From: Sinomicrobium pectinilyticum
GTDB taxonomy: Bacteria; Bacteroidota; Bacteroidia; Flavobacteriales; Flavobacteriaceae
Reading direction: 5' to 3'
Assembly: GCF_003725735.1 (NCBI RefSeq)
Contig: NZ_RJTM01000096.1
Location: forward strand, 1-58,352
Length of the DNA stretch: 58,352 nucleotides
Shown here: positions 46,930 to 54,096 of the stretch, piece after piece
Position numbering within the stretch: position 1 is the first letter of the stretch
How the letters are laid out: every line of letters starts with the position of its first letter
The notes under the pieces: model-generated
What the model was told of the DNA's origin: nothing
What the model saw: only the letters and a program-made list of their open reading frames with translations
Databases searched by the model: none
Made by a program: the position numbers and the translations under genes

Positions 46930-47086
46930 TGGTATTCCTATTTACATAGACGAAAAAAGCGTTTTAAAGGTTGCCCGGGCAGGTAATTTTTTAGGTGGTT
47001 ATCGGAAAAATACAGAAAACGGTCTGCTTTTAAGGGTGGTATATCTTTTCCCTGCCGGCAAATGAGATATGGTTATGATCCCGGTA

Positions 47087-48064
47087 TTATTTCTTCCGGT
47101 CTATAACATAGTTTACCATAAGTTCCAGGGAACTCTTGTATTCGGATTCCGGATAGGCATTCAGCAATTGTAAAGCTTCCTGCTGAAATTCTTTCATCTT
47201 CTGTCCCGCATATTCCAGTCCGCCGCTCTGTTTTACAAAGGCGATGACCTCCTTCACCCTCGCGGCATTCTTGTTGTGGTTCTTTACGGAATTTATCAGC
47301 CACCGCTTGTCCTTTTCCGAACAATTGTTAAGGGTATAGATCAGGGGAAGGGTCATTTTCTGTTCTTTGATGTCTATCCCGGTGGGTTTACCGATACGTT
47401 CTTCACCGTAATCAAAAAGGTCATCCTTGATCTGGAATGCCATGCCGATAAGTTCCCCGAACTTCCGCATTTTTTCTATTTCTTCCGAAGCGGGCTTCAC
47501 GGAACAGGCGCCTAATGCACAACAGGCAGCTATCAGGGTAGCGGTTTTCTGCCGGATGATCTCGTAGTATATTTCTTCGGTGATATCCAGTCGTCTTGCT
47601 TTTTCGATCTGCAACAACTCTCCTTCGCTCATTTCCCTTACTGCTACGGAAATGATCTTAAGCAGGTCAAAATCATCGTTATCTATGGACAAGAGTAATC
47701 CCTTGGAGAGAAGGTAATCCCCTACCAGAACGGCAATTTTGTTTTTCCACAAGGCATTGAGGGAGAAAAAGCCACGACGGCGGTTACTGTCGTCCACCAC
47801 ATCGTCATGCACCAGGGTGGCGGTATGGATAAGTTCTATTACGGAGGCTCCCCGGTATGTCCGTTCGTTTACCTTACCCCCCGAAACCATTTTGGCTACG
47901 AGAAAGACGAACATGGGGCGCATCTGCTTCCCTTTGCGGTTTACGATATAATACGTAATGCGATTGAGAAGGGAAACCTTGGAAGACATGGATTCGTAGA
48001 ACTTTTTCTCGAAAAGTTCCATCTCGGTGTAAATCGGTTGCTTAATTCTTACCACAGGTTTCAT
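47087..48064 (-). CDS. All-trans polyprenyl diphosphate synthase
   Basis: A 325-residue prenyl chain-elongating enzyme that condenses isopentenyl diphosphate with an allylic primer; in this lineage the product probably serves menaquinone side chains. The first Asp-rich motif is HDDVVDDSNRRR and the second is QIKDDLFDYG. Bulky chain-stopping aromatic residues are not seen just before the first motif, which suits a medium-to-long chain. The start is the ATG at 48064; the upstream TTG is less likely. Confidence 0.92.
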   Translation of the reverse strand: MKPVVRIKQPIYTEMELFEKKFYESMSSKVSLLNRITYYIVNRKGKQMRPMFVFLVAKMVSGGKVNERTYRGASVIELIHTATLVHDDVVDDSNRRRGFFSLNALWKNKIAVLVGDYLLSKGLLLSIDNDDFDLLKIISVAVREMSEGELLQIEKARRLDITEEIYYEIIRQKTATLIAACCALGACSVKPASEEIEKMRKFGELIGMAFQIKDDLFDYGEERIGKPTGIDIKEQKMTLPLIYTLNNCSEKDKRWLINSVKNHNKNAARVKEVIAFVKQSGGLEYAGQKMKEFQQEALQLLNAYPESEYKSSLELMVNYVIDRKK

Positions 48065-48213
48065 CACGGCTCCAAAGATATAAAAAAGCTGCAATTAAAA
48101 AGAAGTATACCCGTTACGGAATCACCGGATTTCCGGAATAAATAATTGTATGCCAAAGTTTGTTTGTTTTCATAAGAATTACTTATTTTAAAAACCCGAA
48201 AAAATAATTTCTC

Positions 48214-48729
48214 ATGTCTCTTTCATTCAAAAAATGTACTACGGCCCACCTGGATGTCCTGTTAAAATTATCCAAAATCACCTTTACGGAGACCTATGCC
48301 GCTCAAAACGATCCTGAAGATTTTAAATCATACATGGAAAAGGCTTTTGCCCGCGAACTGGTACAAAAAGAACTGCAAAATGGCCTTTCCTTTTTTTACC
48401 TAGCTTATGATGACGGGGAGCCGGTAGGATATTTTAAACTTAATCCCGCAGGGGCCCAGACCGATATCAACGAGCCCGGGACTATGGAACTGGAACGTAT
48501 TTACCTGCTCCGGTCGGCCCAAGGCAAAAAACTGGGGAACGACCTCATCCGGAAAGCCATAGAGATCAGCCGGGAACAAAACGCCGCTTATATGTGGTTG
48601 GGAGTGTGGGATCAAAATACCAGGGCTATTGCATTTTACGAAAGAAACGGTTTTGTGAAATTCGGCGAGCACCCCTTTGTCATAGGTGAGGCCAAACAGA
48701 CGGACTGGCTGATGAAAATCCCCCTTTAA
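48214..48729 (+). CDS. GNAT-family N-acetyltransferase
   Basis: A 171-residue GCN5-type acetyltransferase. The acetyl-CoA loop is LRSAQGKKLGNDLI, preceded by strand MELERIYL; motif B follows with NTRAIAFYERNGF. Substrate is unknown; it resembles the broad polyamine/small-molecule GNAT group. It lies 1.2 kb upstream of the graspetide precursor. Cyanobacterial microviridins are N-acetylated by a GNAT, so a link is possible, but two unrelated-looking genes intervene. Confidence 0.9.
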   Translation: MSLSFKKCTTAHLDVLLKLSKITFTETYAAQNDPEDFKSYMEKAFARELVQKELQNGLSFFYLAYDDGEPVGYFKLNPAGAQTDINEPGTMELERIYLLRSAQGKKLGNDLIRKAIEISREQNAAYMWLGVWDQNTRAIAFYERNGFVKFGEHPFVIGEAKQTDWLMKIPL

Positions 48730-48782
48730 AGTTTCTCATACAGGTAACAAAACATTATTAACCTCTTATATTCTACGAAAAA

Positions 48783-49358
48783 ATGAAAAGAATTACGGTT
48801 TACTGCGGTTCCAACGACGGAAACGACCCGGTTTATAAAGCACAGGCCTTTTTGCTGGGAAAAACCCTGGCCCAGCGAAATATAGAACTCATTTATGGCG
48901 GGGCCCACGTAGGGCTTATGGGCGCCATCGCGGACGGGGCCCTTGGCGAGGGCGGAAAAGTAACGGGGGTATTGCCCGGTTTTCTGCGAAATAAAGAGAT
49001 CGCACATGAAAAACTCACAGAACTTTTACTGGTGGAAACGATGTCGCAACGAAAAATTAAAATAGAAGAGCTGGCAGACGGTATCATAGCCCTCCCCGGG
49101 GGATACGGAACCCTTGACGAGCTTTTCGAGGCCCTTACCAACGCACAATTACAATTACACCGAAAGCCGGTCGGCTTGTTGAATACAGAAGGTTTCTATG
49201 ACGGACTGGTACAATTACTGGATACCATGACCTCGCGGGGACTGCTAAAAGAAGTGAACCGGAATATGCTGCTCGTAAGCGAAGATATCGATGAACTTCT
49301 GGACAAAATGAGCCGTTATATCGCTCCTTCGGTAAGTAAATGGATAGGAAAAAATTAA
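48783..49358 (+). CDS. LOG-family protein (TIGR00730)
   Basis: A 191-residue Rossmann-fold protein of the lysine-decarboxylase-like/LOG family, whose members release adenine-type bases from nucleoside 5'-monophosphates (cytokinin-activating phosphoribohydrolase). The signature PGGYGTLDE is present, with YGGAHVGLMGAIAD near residue 40. It is of normal length. The biological substrate in this organism is not known. Confidence 0.92.
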   Translation: MKRITVYCGSNDGNDPVYKAQAFLLGKTLAQRNIELIYGGAHVGLMGAIADGALGEGGKVTGVLPGFLRNKEIAHEKLTELLLVETMSQRKIKIEELADGIIALPGGYGTLDELFEALTNAQLQLHRKPVGLLNTEGFYDGLVQLLDTMTSRGLLKEVNRNMLLVSEDIDELLDKMSRYIAPSVSKWIGKN

Positions 49359-49366
49359 ACCTCCCT

Positions 49367-49771
49367 ATGCTCCGTCTGAACAAAATACACCATATAGCAA
49401 TTATTTGCTCGGATTATGAAATATCCAAAGCCTTTTATACCGGCATATTGGGCCTTACCATCCTGAAAGAAACCTACAGAACGGAAAGAAAGTCCTATAA
49501 ACTCGACCTCGCCCTGAACGATAATTATGTTATCGAACTCTTCTCGTTTCCCCATCCCCCGTCCCGTATTTCCCGGCCGGAGGCCACGGGACTTCGACAT
49601 CTCGCTTTTGAGGTGGACAACCTGGAGAGAGCACTGGAAATATTGCGCAAAAACGGTATTGAGACCGAGGGTATCCGTACAGATATCCTTACCGGTAAAA
49701 GGTTTACTTTCTTTCCGGACCCGGACGGGCTTCCCCTGGAACTTTATGAATCCAATTATCATCCTGATTGA
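49367..49771 (+). CDS. VOC-family (glyoxalase-like) protein
   Basis: A 134-residue vicinal-oxygen-chelate fold protein. It opens with NKIHHIAIICSDYEISKAFY, with a metal-ligand His, and has a second half with LRHLAFEVDNLERALE and a closing FFPDPDGLPLELYE supplying the last Glu. Similar to the SMU1112c/YaeR-type glyoxalase-related group. I used the ATG at 49367; an upstream in-frame ATG at 49340 would overlap the LOG gene by 19 bases. Confidence 0.9.
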   Translation: MLRLNKIHHIAIICSDYEISKAFYTGILGLTILKETYRTERKSYKLDLALNDNYVIELFSFPHPPSRISRPEATGLRHLAFEVDNLERALEILRKNGIETEGIRTDILTGKRFTFFPDPDGLPLELYESNYHPD

Positions 49772-49907
49772 GAAAATATCATTTGCAGCACCATATGATT
49801 GATGTTATCAAACTTTTAACATATTAACAGTGTATTTTTTGCAACCTTTCTTTCTTTTGTGCATCATTTAAATATTAAAATAAGTATTAACCCCAAATTT
49901 TTCTATC

Positions 49908-50150
49908 ATGAAAAAAGAAAACAAAGGCCTTAAAAAGCCGTTTTTCGCAAATTTCCTGGAGCATCAGGTATCCGGAGAGGAACAAGAAAGTGTACAGGGT
50001 GGTACTACCCTTAAATTCCCTTCCGATCAGGAAGAGGATGGAAGCGGCATTACATCCACCATTACCAAACCGGTCCTGGACCAGGACGGCGGAGGTGATG
50101 TAACCCAGAAGTTCCCTTCGGATGACGATGAAGAGGGGGATATCATGTAG
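49908..50150 (+). CDS. Microviridin-type graspetide precursor, multi-core
   Basis: An 80-residue precursor of a ribosomally made omega-ester/amide peptide. Leader: KKPFFANFLEHQ (residues 9-20) matches the PFFARFLE recognition helix of microviridin precursors. A GG pair (31-32) precedes core 1, T34-L-K36-F-P-S39-D40-Q-E42-E43-D, which fits the microviridin TxKYPSDxEE pattern. Core 2, T66-Q-K68-F-P-S71-D72-D-D74-E75-E, repeats it with Asp74 where Glu is usual. Between them, residues 49-60 (TSTITKPVLDQD) look like a degenerate third repeat. By family precedent, Thr-Asp and Ser-Glu esters plus a Lys-Glu amide would form in each full core. The products are typically serine-protease inhibitors. Confidence 0.93.
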   Translation: MKKENKGLKKPFFANFLEHQVSGEEQESVQGGTTLKFPSDQEEDGSGITSTITKPVLDQDGGGDVTQKFPSDDDEEGDIM

Positions 50151-50176
50151 AACAACGAGATTTATCTCTGTGACAC

Positions 50177-50206
50177 GACAATAGCCTTTCGGGGCTATTG
50201 TCTTTT
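50177..50206 (+). terminator. Terminator/attenuator after the precursor gene
   Basis: A 10-bp perfect stem GACAATAGCC / GGCTATTGTC with a 6-base loop, followed by four T. It lies 26 bases after the precursor stop and 38 bases before the first ligase gene, so partial read-through would give excess precursor over enzymes. Confidence 0.8.
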
Positions 50207-50243
50207 AATGTCCCGTTCTTAACCATAAAAACATCAGCCCCCG

Positions 50244-51215
50244 ATGATTTTACTCCTTACCCATAGCAAAGACCATTACACCATAGATATAGTCCGGAAA
50301 AAATGTGAAGCCCTCGGCAAAGAAACTTTCCGGATGGACACCGATCTTTTCTCCCATCAATCACGTTTCAGTTATACCTGCGGCAACAGCCGGAAAGACC
50401 TCTTCTGGTCGGTCGGGGACCGGGGTTTTTCCGTTAAGGATATCGAAGCGGTCTGGTACCGGAAACTCTGGTCTGTTCACCCACCCCGGGACCTCGCCCC
50501 GGAATATCACAAAATATACACCCAGGAGTACGGCACCATGCGAAACATCTTCTTCGAATCGCTCCGGCACCTTCCCTGGATGAATCCCATGACCAGGGAC
50601 CATGAAGTGAGCAAGGACAAACTGGAGCAGTTACAGACAGCTTCCCTGCACGGACTGGAAATCCCGAAAAGCCTGTTTTCCAACGATCCGGAAAAGGCCA
50701 GGTCATTTTTTTACGAGGATTGCAAAGGAAAAATGATCGCTAAACTCCACGGCTCCCTGTCCAGAAGTATGCAGGGAGATGCTCCTTTCTTTCCGACCAC
50801 ATCTATTACCGAAAAGGACCTGGAGCGACTTGACGTACTTCCGCTCTGCCCTATGATTTTTCAGGAAATGATCCCGAAAGCCTATGAACTCCGCATCATT
50901 TATGTGGACGGAAACTTTTTTACCGGGAAGATCGATGTGGGAGATTCGGTACGGGGGAAAACGGATTGGAGGATTGCTACGGACCAGAATATTGTATGGG
51001 AGCCTTACACGTTGCCGGATGACATCCGCACCTCCCTCACCCGAATGATGCAGGCAACGGGACTGTTCTTCGGAGCCCTGGATATGATCCGGCATAAAGA
51101 CGGACGTTACATCTTCCTGGAAGTAAATCCCCAGGGAGAATGGGGCATGTTGCAACGCGACCTCGGTTATCCCATCGGGGAGACCATAGCGGAAAAACTG
51201 GTAGCGAGAATTTAA
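50244..51215 (+). CDS. MvdC/MdnB-type ATP-grasp peptide ligase (amide forming)
   Basis: A 323-residue ATP-grasp enzyme predicted to make the Lys-Glu/Asp amide cross-link of the graspetide. It starts MILLLTHSKDHYTID and contains KMIAKLHGSLSRSMQG, CPMIFQEMIPKAYELRIIYV and FLEVNPQGEWGMLQRD, close to what I remember of MdnB (VAKLLTALSRSMEG, FLEVNPTGEWGML). The metal/ATP ligands E-V-N of the C-terminal ATP-grasp loop are kept. It is 19 bases upstream of the second ligase. The amide role is from homology only. Confidence 0.9.
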   Translation: MILLLTHSKDHYTIDIVRKKCEALGKETFRMDTDLFSHQSRFSYTCGNSRKDLFWSVGDRGFSVKDIEAVWYRKLWSVHPPRDLAPEYHKIYTQEYGTMRNIFFESLRHLPWMNPMTRDHEVSKDKLEQLQTASLHGLEIPKSLFSNDPEKARSFFYEDCKGKMIAKLHGSLSRSMQGDAPFFPTTSITEKDLERLDVLPLCPMIFQEMIPKAYELRIIYVDGNFFTGKIDVGDSVRGKTDWRIATDQNIVWEPYTLPDDIRTSLTRMMQATGLFFGALDMIRHKDGRYIFLEVNPQGEWGMLQRDLGYPIGETIAEKLVARI

Positions 51216-51234
51216 ATCCCAAAATCACCCACCT

Positions 51235-52260
51235 ATGCAAAAAATATTAATCATCACCCATTCCAAAGACAATGCCTCCGTTTCTGCCGTATCCGGTTTT
51301 TTAAAAGAATCGGGGGCACTGGTCATTCGTTTTAATGTAGATGAATACCCGTTGAAATACCGACTCAGCAGCCGTTTCGAAAACAATACATGGCAGATTT
51401 TTCTGGACACTGACGGGAAGCGGGAGTCCCTTCATGATATCACAGCCGTATGGTACCGCCGAAGCCATAACCTTGCTGCCGGACTACATCATATACTGGA
51501 AGGTACTTATCTTACCAGTGTGCAGAAGGAGATACGGCGTACCCTTTTCGGAATGCTGGAAAGTATGCCTTGTTTCCAGATAGACAGGTTCAGCAAGTAC
51601 CGCCGGCTGGACAGTAAGGAAGAACAAATGAAAATAGCGTCTTCCCTGGGGCTTCGCATACCGGATACCTGTATCACCAACGATCCGGAAGAAGCGCGCG
51701 ATTTTGTACGGTCGCACCCGCAGGGAGCCATCGTTAAGATGCAGAGTTCTTTTGCCATATACCAAGAAGGCAGGGAACATGTAGTGTTTACCAATGTAGT
51801 ATCCGACAAAGATCTGGACGCCATAGATACTCTTCAGTACTGCCCCATGCAATTCCAGGAAAAGCTGGAAAAAGTCCGCGAATTACGGGTGACCATAATA
51901 GGAGATGCCGTGTTTACCTATGCCATAGATTCCCGAAAACTGGAAAATGCAAAGATCGATTGGCGCCGGGAAGGGAATACCCTTCTCCATGACTGGGAAC
52001 CTTATGACCTGCCGAAAGATATCAGGGAAAAATTACTTCGGTTAATGGATGTTTACCAGGTCAATTACGGGGCCATAGATATTATAGTTACCCCGCAGGA
52101 CGAATATTATTTCCTGGAGATCAATGCCGCCGGGGAATATCTCTGGCTCGACCGGCTTGCCAATGGTACCATCTCCGGACACCTGGCCAAAGTACTGACG
52201 GGAGAAGCATACCGCAGGTATACCCCGGCCATTCAGATGATCGGGCAGCCACAATCATAA
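51235..52260 (+). CDS. MvdD/MdnC-type ATP-grasp peptide ligase (ester forming)
   Basis: A 341-residue ATP-grasp enzyme predicted to form the omega-esters between Thr/Ser and Asp/Glu side chains of the precursor. Diagnostic segments shared with remembered MdnC are SSFAIYQEGREHVVFTN, CPMQFQEKLEKVRELRVTII, IDWRREGNTLLHDWEPYDLP and NYGAIDIIVTP, followed by FLEINAAGEYLWL, where MdnC has FLEINPVGEFFWL. ATP/Mg ligands are intact. The C-terminus is about 15 residues longer than the first ligase. A terminator follows. Confidence 0.92.
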   Translation: MQKILIITHSKDNASVSAVSGFLKESGALVIRFNVDEYPLKYRLSSRFENNTWQIFLDTDGKRESLHDITAVWYRRSHNLAAGLHHILEGTYLTSVQKEIRRTLFGMLESMPCFQIDRFSKYRRLDSKEEQMKIASSLGLRIPDTCITNDPEEARDFVRSHPQGAIVKMQSSFAIYQEGREHVVFTNVVSDKDLDAIDTLQYCPMQFQEKLEKVRELRVTIIGDAVFTYAIDSRKLENAKIDWRREGNTLLHDWEPYDLPKDIREKLLRLMDVYQVNYGAIDIIVTPQDEYYFLEINAAGEYLWLDRLANGTISGHLAKVLTGEAYRRYTPAIQMIGQPQS

Positions 52261-52288
52261 ACGATGGCAATACCATACGATATATAAA

Positions 52289-52312
52289 AAGAGGCACCCC
52301 AGGATGCCTCTT
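52289..52312. terminator. Bidirectional terminator
   Basis: An 8-bp stem AAGAGGCA / TGCCTCTT with an 8-base loop, flanked by an A run on the left and T-rich sequence on the right. It serves the graspetide operon (plus) and the converging beta-barrel gene (minus). Confidence 0.7.
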
Positions 52313-52341
52313 CAATTTCATATGATATCCATATCCGTGGA

Positions 52342-54096
52342 TTACATATCGAACTTATAGGTTACCCCTCCCAGTATCTGGAATCCCTGAACCTGGTAGT
52401 TCATCCACCTGGTATACTGATTATTTGCTATATTATTGGCTTTTGCAAAAACCGACAGTTGATCGTTAAAGCGGTATCCCAGGCGGGCATTAACATCAAA
52501 ATAACTGTCCAGTTCCACTATCTGTGGTTCTGCGGTCATTAAGGACTCCGGTACATACAGGTCCTTTCGCCGGCCTACAAAAAATATGTTGGCCCCGGCA
52601 AACCAATGCTCCCCGATCTGGTAATCTCCGAAGAAAGATCCCTGTACTATGGGAAGGTTCCACGCCTCCTGTTCGTTATCCGTATCATAACCGGATATTT
52701 CGGCATTGACACCGAGTGTAAGATTACGGTCTATATCCGCATGGATTTCTCCGAAAGCGGAATATGTGGTGACATCATCATATATCACTCCGAAGGAATT
52801 TCCGTAAACATACCCCTGGTTTTCATTGCCGGCAACATTAACCTGGTTGGCGCGAAACAGCGGTTTATTATTTTCTGCCCGGTAAGAGCCTTTTATATTA
52901 TACCCTATACTGGAAGACAGTTTCCCTTTCATCCCAACATAGGCATCGTATTGCCTGTCCGTAGGGGTAATCCCTAAGGTAGGGGACACGAAAAAGTTCT
53001 CCTGAACAAGATCGTAATAAGAATTCTGGTCCAGGCCGCCCACCACACCTCCGTAGAGGGTCACGAATTCTTCCACAAGGCGATAAGATGCTTTTACCTG
53101 CGGGTAGATATAAAAGTCATTATCATCATTCTCGATATCCATACCATAGAAAACAGATGCTCCAAGACTTATGCTAAAGTCTTCTCCATCTATTACCAGG
53201 TTGGGATTTACTCCCAAAAGCAGATTACTGTATTTCCATTTTTCATCGGTAAAGTATCCGCGTTTGAATTCCCCCCCTACATAATCGGCAAAAACGTGGG
53301 TGGTGATCAGTTCTTCCCCTACGGGGAATTGAAAAGAAGGGTTCAGAAGGGCCCTGTTTTCCCCGGAATCGTGGGCATCCCAGAAACGTCTTAAAGTAAA
53401 TTCTCCCCCGGTGAATACAGATTCGTCTATAGCTTCGAGGTTACCTCCCACGGCAGCGGTATAATAAGTTTGTCTTTCATCTATACCATCTATCACAGCC
53501 TGACCGAAACCGGCCTGTTCCGGTAAACCGTACCAGTTATAGATCTGGTGCCGGAAGCTGCCGCTCACACCCCAGCGATAAAAACGACCTGCATTTCTGT
53601 ACGCCGCTTCCAGCTTGGTGTCGAAAAACTTGGTATCCAGTTCCGTTTCGTCCAGTTGCCCCTGTGCAGAGTGGTGGTTGAGCCCGATATCGAAGGACTG
53701 ATCTTTAGTGATCTCCCTGCTGGTATAAAAATCGAGCAGAGCCGTACTGTAATTCCCCAGTCCGAGGGAAACGTAAGTATTGTACAGCATATCCCGTTTT
53801 TTCTTTTCTATCCCGGAAACCTTCCCTTTGGCGGGAACGAACGTCGACGCTACGGGAACGGAAAAAATGCTGTAATTTATCTCCTTTTTCTTTAACAATG
53901 TGGAATCGTCCAGCGCCGGAACCTCACGCACTTTAAAAGCGTCGGAGATATTTGCCTTATACGGCCTTACCACATCTACCGTTTCCGTACCTATATTCTC
54001 CTTCTCCTGGGCAAAGCCAGGTGACAGGGAAAGGAAGACAAATGCCAGTGACCACAAATATTTATTCCCCGGTATTCCCGGCTGTCGTTTCTTCAT
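52342..54096 (-). CDS. TonB-receptor-like outer-membrane beta-barrel protein
   Basis: A 584-residue outer-membrane protein: signal peptide ending near PGFAQ, a short N-terminal region with ETVDVVRPYKANISDAF, then long alternating strands ending VTYKFDM. It lacks a recognisable plug domain and carboxypeptidase-like domain, so it resembles the barrel half of a TonB-dependent receptor rather than a full one. The start at 54096 gives a normal signal peptide (MKKRQPGIPGNKYLWSLAF); the longer in-frame start does not. It follows the large TPR gene by 95 bases, and the pair probably works together at the outer membrane. Confidence 0.8.
   Translation of the reverse strand: MKKRQPGIPGNKYLWSLAFVFLSLSPGFAQEKENIGTETVDVVRPYKANISDAFKVREVPALDDSTLLKKKEINYSIFSVPVASTFVPAKGKVSGIEKKKRDMLYNTYVSLGLGNYSTALLDFYTSREITKDQSFDIGLNHHSAQGQLDETELDTKFFDTKLEAAYRNAGRFYRWGVSGSFRHQIYNWYGLPEQAGFGQAVIDGIDERQTYYTAAVGGNLEAIDESVFTGGEFTLRRFWDAHDSGENRALLNPSFQFPVGEELITTHVFADYVGGEFKRGYFTDEKWKYSNLLLGVNPNLVIDGEDFSISLGASVFYGMDIENDDNDFYIYPQVKASYRLVEEFVTLYGGVVGGLDQNSYYDLVQENFFVSPTLGITPTDRQYDAYVGMKGKLSSSIGYNIKGSYRAENNKPLFRANQVNVAGNENQGYVYGNSFGVIYDDVTTYSAFGEIHADIDRNLTLGVNAEISGYDTDNEQEAWNLPIVQGSFFGDYQIGEHWFAGANIFFVGRRKDLYVPESLMTAEPQIVELDSYFDVNARLGYRFNDQLSVFAKANNIANNQYTRWMNYQVQGFQILGGVTYKFDM

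Follow-up and report, generated by a model that had tools for sequence, protein, structure and literature searches.

A microviridin/chryseoviridin-type graspetide operon in Sinomicrobium pectinilyticum with two predicted inhibitor heads and a probable ring between them

Closest described systems and the gene set

Class I microviridins such as microviridins A, B and J are made from a single TxKxPSDxEE core (PMC7823629; this and the other papers given by PMC number are cited from the parts of their text that were available) with a leader helix motif and two ligases (PMC13039773, PMC5934393), and microviridins A and B end in an aromatic residue (PMC7823629). The MvdC-type ligase (MdnB in the microviridin J pathway) is the lactam former and the MvdD-type ligase (MdnC) the lactone former (PMC13039773, PMC5934393), and the classical pathway also includes an acetyltransferase and a transporter (PMC5934393). 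Class II microviridin precursors combine several microviridin-like cores with a GG motif, such motifs belonging to class II and class III graspetide precursors (PMC13039773); for AMdnA of the class II AMdnA/AMdnC system of Anabaena sp. PCC 7120, three cores are predicted (PMC5934393). Multicore precursors have also been described for Chryseobacterium (PMC8939145), the chryseoviridin system of Chryseobacterium gregarium comprising CdnA, CdnB and CdnC. The conserved part of the chryseoviridin precursor reads TxxxxDxxxTxKxPSDxD[DE], and a figure legend gives the marked positions as experimentally found linkages (PMC8939145). A microviridin-like cluster from the same genus as the present locus, in Sinomicrobium oceani PAP.21, was linked by antiSMASH and BiG-SCAPE to microviridin J, but the available part of that report describes no precursor or core (PMC10112250). 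No description of the precursor analysed here was found in the part of the Sinomicrobium and microviridin literature that was searched.

The window, meaning the whole 58,352-nucleotide stretch of S. pectinilyticum DNA that was analysed, is part of contig C12 in a genome of 5.6 Mb. It contains three open reading frames, in the order precursor, ligase B and ligase C:

49908..50150, + strand: precursor peptide, 80 amino acids, with two microviridin-type cores (NF033738, PF12559, dN/dS)
50244..51215, + strand: ligase B, an MvdC/MdnB-type ATP-grasp ligase, 323 amino acids, presumed lactam (Lys-Glu) former (TIGR04185, AMdnB)
51235..52260, + strand: ligase C, an MvdD/MdnC/CdnC-type ATP-grasp ligase, 341 amino acids, presumed lactone (ester) former (TIGR04184, CdnC)

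Family matches for all three genes bore out the assignment to the microviridin-type graspetide class made in an earlier note on this DNA. The precursor passed the cut-offs of NCBIfam NF033738 (microviridin/marinostatin; E 3.3e-15, 56.6 bits, cut-off 26) and Pfam Inhibitor_I10 (PF12559; 33.1 bits, cut-off 21), and had no relative among solved structures at E up to 1. The two ATP-grasp types that the note had distinguished were recovered, the top family being MvdC (TIGR04185) for ligase B, at 370 bits and below the equivalog cut-off of 425, and MvdD (TIGR04184) for ligase C, at 411 bits and below the equivalog cut-off of 475; PF21068 was matched by both. The best solved relative of ligase B was AMdnB (7m4s, 260 bits), and that of ligase C was CdnC (7mgv, 383 bits), with 5ig9 behind at 251 bits, which places ligase C with the CdnC-type lactone ligases of the chryseoviridin group. 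Its nearest named relatives are in Sinomicrobium weinanense (82% identity) and S. oceani (76%). Judged by these matches, the locus is a microviridin/chryseoviridin-type graspetide operon, with linkages, processing and activity predicted by homology.

The two cores and the motif between them

Five features of the precursor bear on its maturation:

49938..49961, + strand: leader helix motif PFFANFLE, aa 11-18, presumed ligase-binding element (sequence, published motif)
49998..50003, + strand: double glycine, aa 31-32, presumed leader cleavage site before core 1 (sequence)
50007..50036, + strand: core 1, TLKFPSDQEE, aa 34-43, with predicted esters T34-D40 and S39-E42 and amide K36-E43 (homology)
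50064..50081, + strand: six-residue T-x4-D motif TKPVLD, aa 53-58, predicted single ester ring (inter-core survey, chryseoviridin motif)
50103..50132, + strand: core 2, TQKFPSDDDE, aa 66-75, with predicted esters T66-D72 and S71-D74 and amide K68-E75 (homology)

The leader reported earlier was found at aa 11-18, and the tandem cores in a single 80-residue peptide at aa 34-43 and aa 66-75. Relative to the published leader motif, PFFARFL, the window has Asn in place of Arg, and Arg was present at this position in 0 of 26 precursors. With two cores and a GG at aa 31-32, where the leader is presumably cleaved, the precursor has the make-up of class II. Both cores fit TxKxPSDx(D/E)(D/E), and the predicted linkages are modelled on microviridin A as described (PMC7823629). 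Core pattern, leader helix motif and paired ligases are shared with class I microviridins, which differ in having a single core and, in microviridins A and B, the C-terminal aromatic residue.

For a survey of cores, 26 precursors were collected from 17 loci (the window and 16 related loci) by requiring the leader PFF[AS]xFLE, which missed others; L028 and L029 were dropped from the 18 ligase C-related loci as too distant. Counts from these loci are not independent of one another, since the loci are related, the pairs L016/L017, L019/L020 and L027/L030 closely so. At least two cores were present in 22 of the 26 precursors (T-cores: two in 18, three in four, one in three, none in one). Tandem cores, which the earlier note had considered unusual, are therefore the usual state, and chryseoviridin and AMdnA are published multicore cases. 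The two acceptor positions that follow PSD were both acidic in 50 of the 51 cores, and the aromatic position was Tyr in 40, Phe in eight and another residue in three; it varies within Sinomicrobium, the S. oceani precursor having Tyr. Phe for Tyr had been put forward as a novelty that might alter the protease target, a suggestion that these counts do not favour. It is residue 5 that governs inhibitor specificity, changes at positions 7, 9 and 11 mattering less, and Leu at position 5 goes with elastase and subtilisin inhibition (PMC7823629). In the window this residue is Leu35 in core 1 and Gln67 in core 2, and by analogy these, rather than Phe for Tyr, are the likely determinants of the target. 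The acidic core tails, likewise proposed as distinctive, proved general, core-region net charge being between -4 and -10 and acidic in all 27 (of 28) precursors computed; what stands of the proposal is that the window, at -10, is at the acidic end of this range. Two Taibaiella loci (L016, 3676-4854; L017, 3712-4848) each encode four different precursors, whose cores have Asn, Asp, Gln, Lys, Leu or Met at position 5 and form a natural specificity series.

The acceptor of the Ser ester was compared in 28 precursors, with T or S allowed at the first core position, of which 26 had at least two cores. First cores mostly had Glu as the acceptor (21 of 26) and last cores mostly Asp (24 of 26; Fisher p 1.2e-7, uncorrected for relatedness). 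The window follows this asymmetry, which the earlier note had missed, with Glu42 in core 1 and Asp74 in core 2, and its cores are not copies of each other. Several complete cores in one precursor are a point of likeness to AMdnA, as is the nearness of ligase B to AMdnB; unlike AMdnA, with its three predicted cores, the window has two, which use different acceptor residues and are separated by a T-x4-D motif.

Inter-core segments of at least six residues (43 from 27 precursors, shorter ones left out) were screened for [TS]x4D, which was found in 39 of the 43; 1000 residue shuffles gave 10 on average and never more than 18. The spacer from the motif Asp to the core Thr, counted by hand from the nearest motif, was three residues in 33 of the 39 segments and seven in all four Sinomicrobium precursors. 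The window thus has every residue of the published TxxxxDxxxTxKxPSDxD[DE] pattern and departs from it in the spacer (7 versus 3). Chryseoviridin and the window share the phylum Bacteroidota, a multicore precursor, a GG motif, a T-x4-D upstream of a TxKxPSDxD[DE] core and a CdnC-type ligase; the window differs in that spacer, in having one T-x4-D and in adding a complete microviridin-type core on the N-terminal side. Because T-x4-D is kept, the chryseoviridin motif is published and CdnC is the nearest solved relative of ligase C, one extra ester is predicted: T53-D58 probably corresponds to the chryseoviridin single-ester ring, and up to seven dehydrations, not six, would be expected. The earlier count of three cross-links per core, six in all, leaves out this probable seventh. 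Confidence in the extra ester is lowered because the Sinomicrobium spacer departs from the published three residues, and given the seven-residue spacer the middle ring might stay unmade.

That spacing is also a point for a strict microviridin type, in which two independent tricyclic cores carry at most six links and the middle segment is a mere linker. Both cores are complete TxKxPSDx(D/E)(D/E) units, as this would have it, Lys54 is replaced by Ser in L012, and the residues preceding the motif vary among the Sinomicrobium precursors. Set against this, none of the four Sinomicrobium precursors has lost the hydroxyl residue or the Asp, even as the preceding residues change, and the one with Ser in place of Thr53 still has the hydroxyl; T-x4-D also recurs across inter-core segments at the frequency given above. 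We consider such a product rather unlikely. Less probable still is a marinostatin-like product joined by esters only, with the MdnB-like ligase idle or acting on another substrate: NF033738 spans marinostatin too and the second acceptor of core 2 is Asp, but MdnB-like and MdnC-like genes stand side by side in 17/17 loci (34 proteins in one cluster). The conserved core Lys adds little against it, since the core pattern demands Lys.

The hairpin and the genomic setting

One further feature, not remarked on in the earlier note, lies between the precursor gene and the ligase genes:

50177..50202, + strand: terminator-like hairpin, 11 pairs followed by TTTT, presumed attenuator (conservation across loci)

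A similar hairpin was found 3' of the last precursor in 17/17 loci, the window included, and in 8/8 further loci (L030-L036, L062), none of which copies the first 17 and in each of which ligase B comes next. Overall, it follows the last precursor in 25/25 loci and non-last precursors in 1/14 cases. The lowest observed hairpin score was 16.1, and 14 of 1700 dinucleotide shuffles reached 15.9; per locus, the observed score was reached by 0/100 shuffles in 16 loci and by 1/100 in L027. As a control, hairpins were scored in the other 40-250 bp gaps between co-directional genes of these 17 loci, and 19 of 52 contained one (Fisher p 1.6e-6 against 17/17); the gene calls behind these gaps were crude, based on the longest ORF, and true operon ends will be among them. 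The hairpin is conserved at this place but not rare in kind.

Covariation was examined in nine sequences hand-picked for similar stems and then aligned, leaving out L016, L017, L019-L021, L023, L024, L026, L027 and L030-L036. All cells paired (81/81), and changes on both sides were seen in eight cells, compared with 2.4 in shuffles, 0/500 of which reached 8. The number of pairs with two-sided changes (three) was equalled by 117/500 shuffles, and the count of further pair types was reached by all 500/500, so that two of five measures do not exceed shuffles. In F. terrae, the precursor and ligase genes are separated by 49 bases, hairpin included (taking an inferred start), which leaves scant space for a separate promoter. 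The hairpin is most simply read as a site of partial termination behind the precursor gene.

A common terminator sequence was rejected as an explanation of the stem, the window stem pattern occurring at one place only in its own genome; a looser flavobacterial pattern gave one match in 11 genomes, a weak test in that the pattern also misses the operon hairpin of the genus. Rfam at gathering thresholds gave no match over 47000-53000, and a promoter scan with a sigma-70 consensus, which is not that of Bacteroidota, gave a match count near the shuffled mean. A limited text search of the graspetide literature found no description of such a hairpin between precursor and ligases. A second terminator-like hairpin is located at 52288-52313, where the ligase C and beta-barrel genes converge.

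In four Sinomicrobium genomes (window, L012, L013, L062) the gene order is prenyl synthase, LOG, VOC, precursor, ligase B, ligase C and beta-barrel, with a GNAT gene added at three of the four loci. Ligase C was found in four of six genus genomes, including S. weinanense (G681) and S. oceani (G297); the two without it (G094, G680) have a DUF4403 gene between the same flanks, a gene that sits on another contig in three of the four carriers of the graspetide genes. The site between prenyl synthase and beta-barrel (window 47087-52342; L060, L061, L062) is thus variable in the genus, holding graspetide genes, LOG and VOC in four genomes and DUF4403 in two. NF033738 was matched in 8/395 phylum genomes and ligase B, at 1e-30, in 4/299 family genomes, own genome included in both counts and two of the latter four at 31% identity only; the graspetide system is patchy in distribution. 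Horizontal transfer was considered and set aside; one unrooted FastTree of the joined ligases places Taibaiella, which belongs to another order, inside the set.

Unlike the classical microviridin cluster, the operon had no acetyltransferase or transporter found as part of it, the transporter search being one for C39 domains. The GNAT at 48214-48729 is PaiA-like, lies on the same strand three genes upstream of the precursor and is present in three of the four genus genomes. It was rejected as a cluster acetyltransferase, its PaiA match being below the cut-off, no such gene being found at the locus of S. oceani, and the LOG and VOC genes intervening; a cluster role for it is unsupported. A tblastn search with three C39 domains from the same genome detected none in the window, nor was one found in 16 related loci of ~13 kb, though GG motifs are present there. 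Of the genome's four C39 matches, all on other contigs, three are strong and lie in open frames of 736-782 amino acids, and one is weak; none is tied to the operon, and these proteins were not taken as part of the system. With no C39 domain found in the window, cleavage and export are predicted steps in what follows. Another peptide-maturase-like ATP-grasp locus of this genome (L003; G000 contig C231, 17745-18299), with a small GG-bearing open reading frame upstream and a cysteine-bearing gene downstream, was set aside as separate, its open reading frames resembling grasp-with-spasm (SPASM labelled by reading).

That no C39 exporter-protease was found in the window and that ligase C is absent from 2/6 genus genomes might suggest a decayed, non-expressed cluster, but intact frames, unchanged gene order in four genus genomes and dN/dS of ~0.09-0.17 make this very improbable. 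The dN/dS values come from six pairs of the four Sinomicrobium precursors (window, L012, L013, L062); by this measure, the precursor is a real gene under purifying selection, core region included.

Proposed pathway and its meaning

From the gene content, motifs, conservation and hairpin established above, a pathway can be proposed whose linkages, cleavage, export, attenuation and inhibition are all predictions. The PFFANFLE leader helix would dock on both ATP-grasp ligases. The CdnC-like ligase (51235-52260) would activate Asp/Glu side chains and close five esters, T34-D40, S39-E42, T53-D58, T66-D72 and S71-D74, after which the MdnB-like ligase (50244-51215) would close two amides, K36-E43 and K68-E75. 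The leader would then be removed by cleavage behind GG32, the probable agent being a C39-type protease encoded elsewhere. The released peptide would act as a two-headed inhibitor of serine proteases, with Leu35 and Gln67 facing the target protease; alternatively, a second cut at the glycine run (aa 61-63) may give two inhibitors. The monoisotopic neutral masses calculated for these predicted products are 4988.246 for the whole peptide (aa 33-80, seven losses of water), and 3120.489 (aa 33-63, four losses) and 1885.768 (aa 64-80, three losses) for the two parts. The hairpin would stop part of the transcripts, leaving precursor in excess over ligases.

We hold this overall model, a two-headed graspetide with a middle ring and attenuated ligase expression, with good confidence: the locus most likely makes a cross-linked protease-inhibitor peptide with two inhibitor heads, and probably a small extra ring between them. 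More tentatively, at somewhat under an even chance, the product may be a mixed class II/III graspetide, in which a microviridin-type head is combined with one chryseoviridin-type ester ring of six residues and another head that uses a different acceptor, one CdnC-like enzyme closes three kinds of ester ring, and a conserved attenuator sets ligase dosage. The kind of operon is already known from its relatives, and the mixed class II/III layout is its one real peculiarity.

If the model is correct, a single natural peptide would present two heads that bind proteases with different specificity, one with Leu and one with Gln at position 5, and the two heads joined via a small ring would be a ready scaffold for bivalent protease inhibitors. 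Across the loci, the asymmetry of first and last cores and the spacing of T-x4-D offer a natural series on acceptor choice by ATP-grasp ligases, and the hairpin is a simple test case of how Bacteroidota may keep a precursor above the level of its enzymes.
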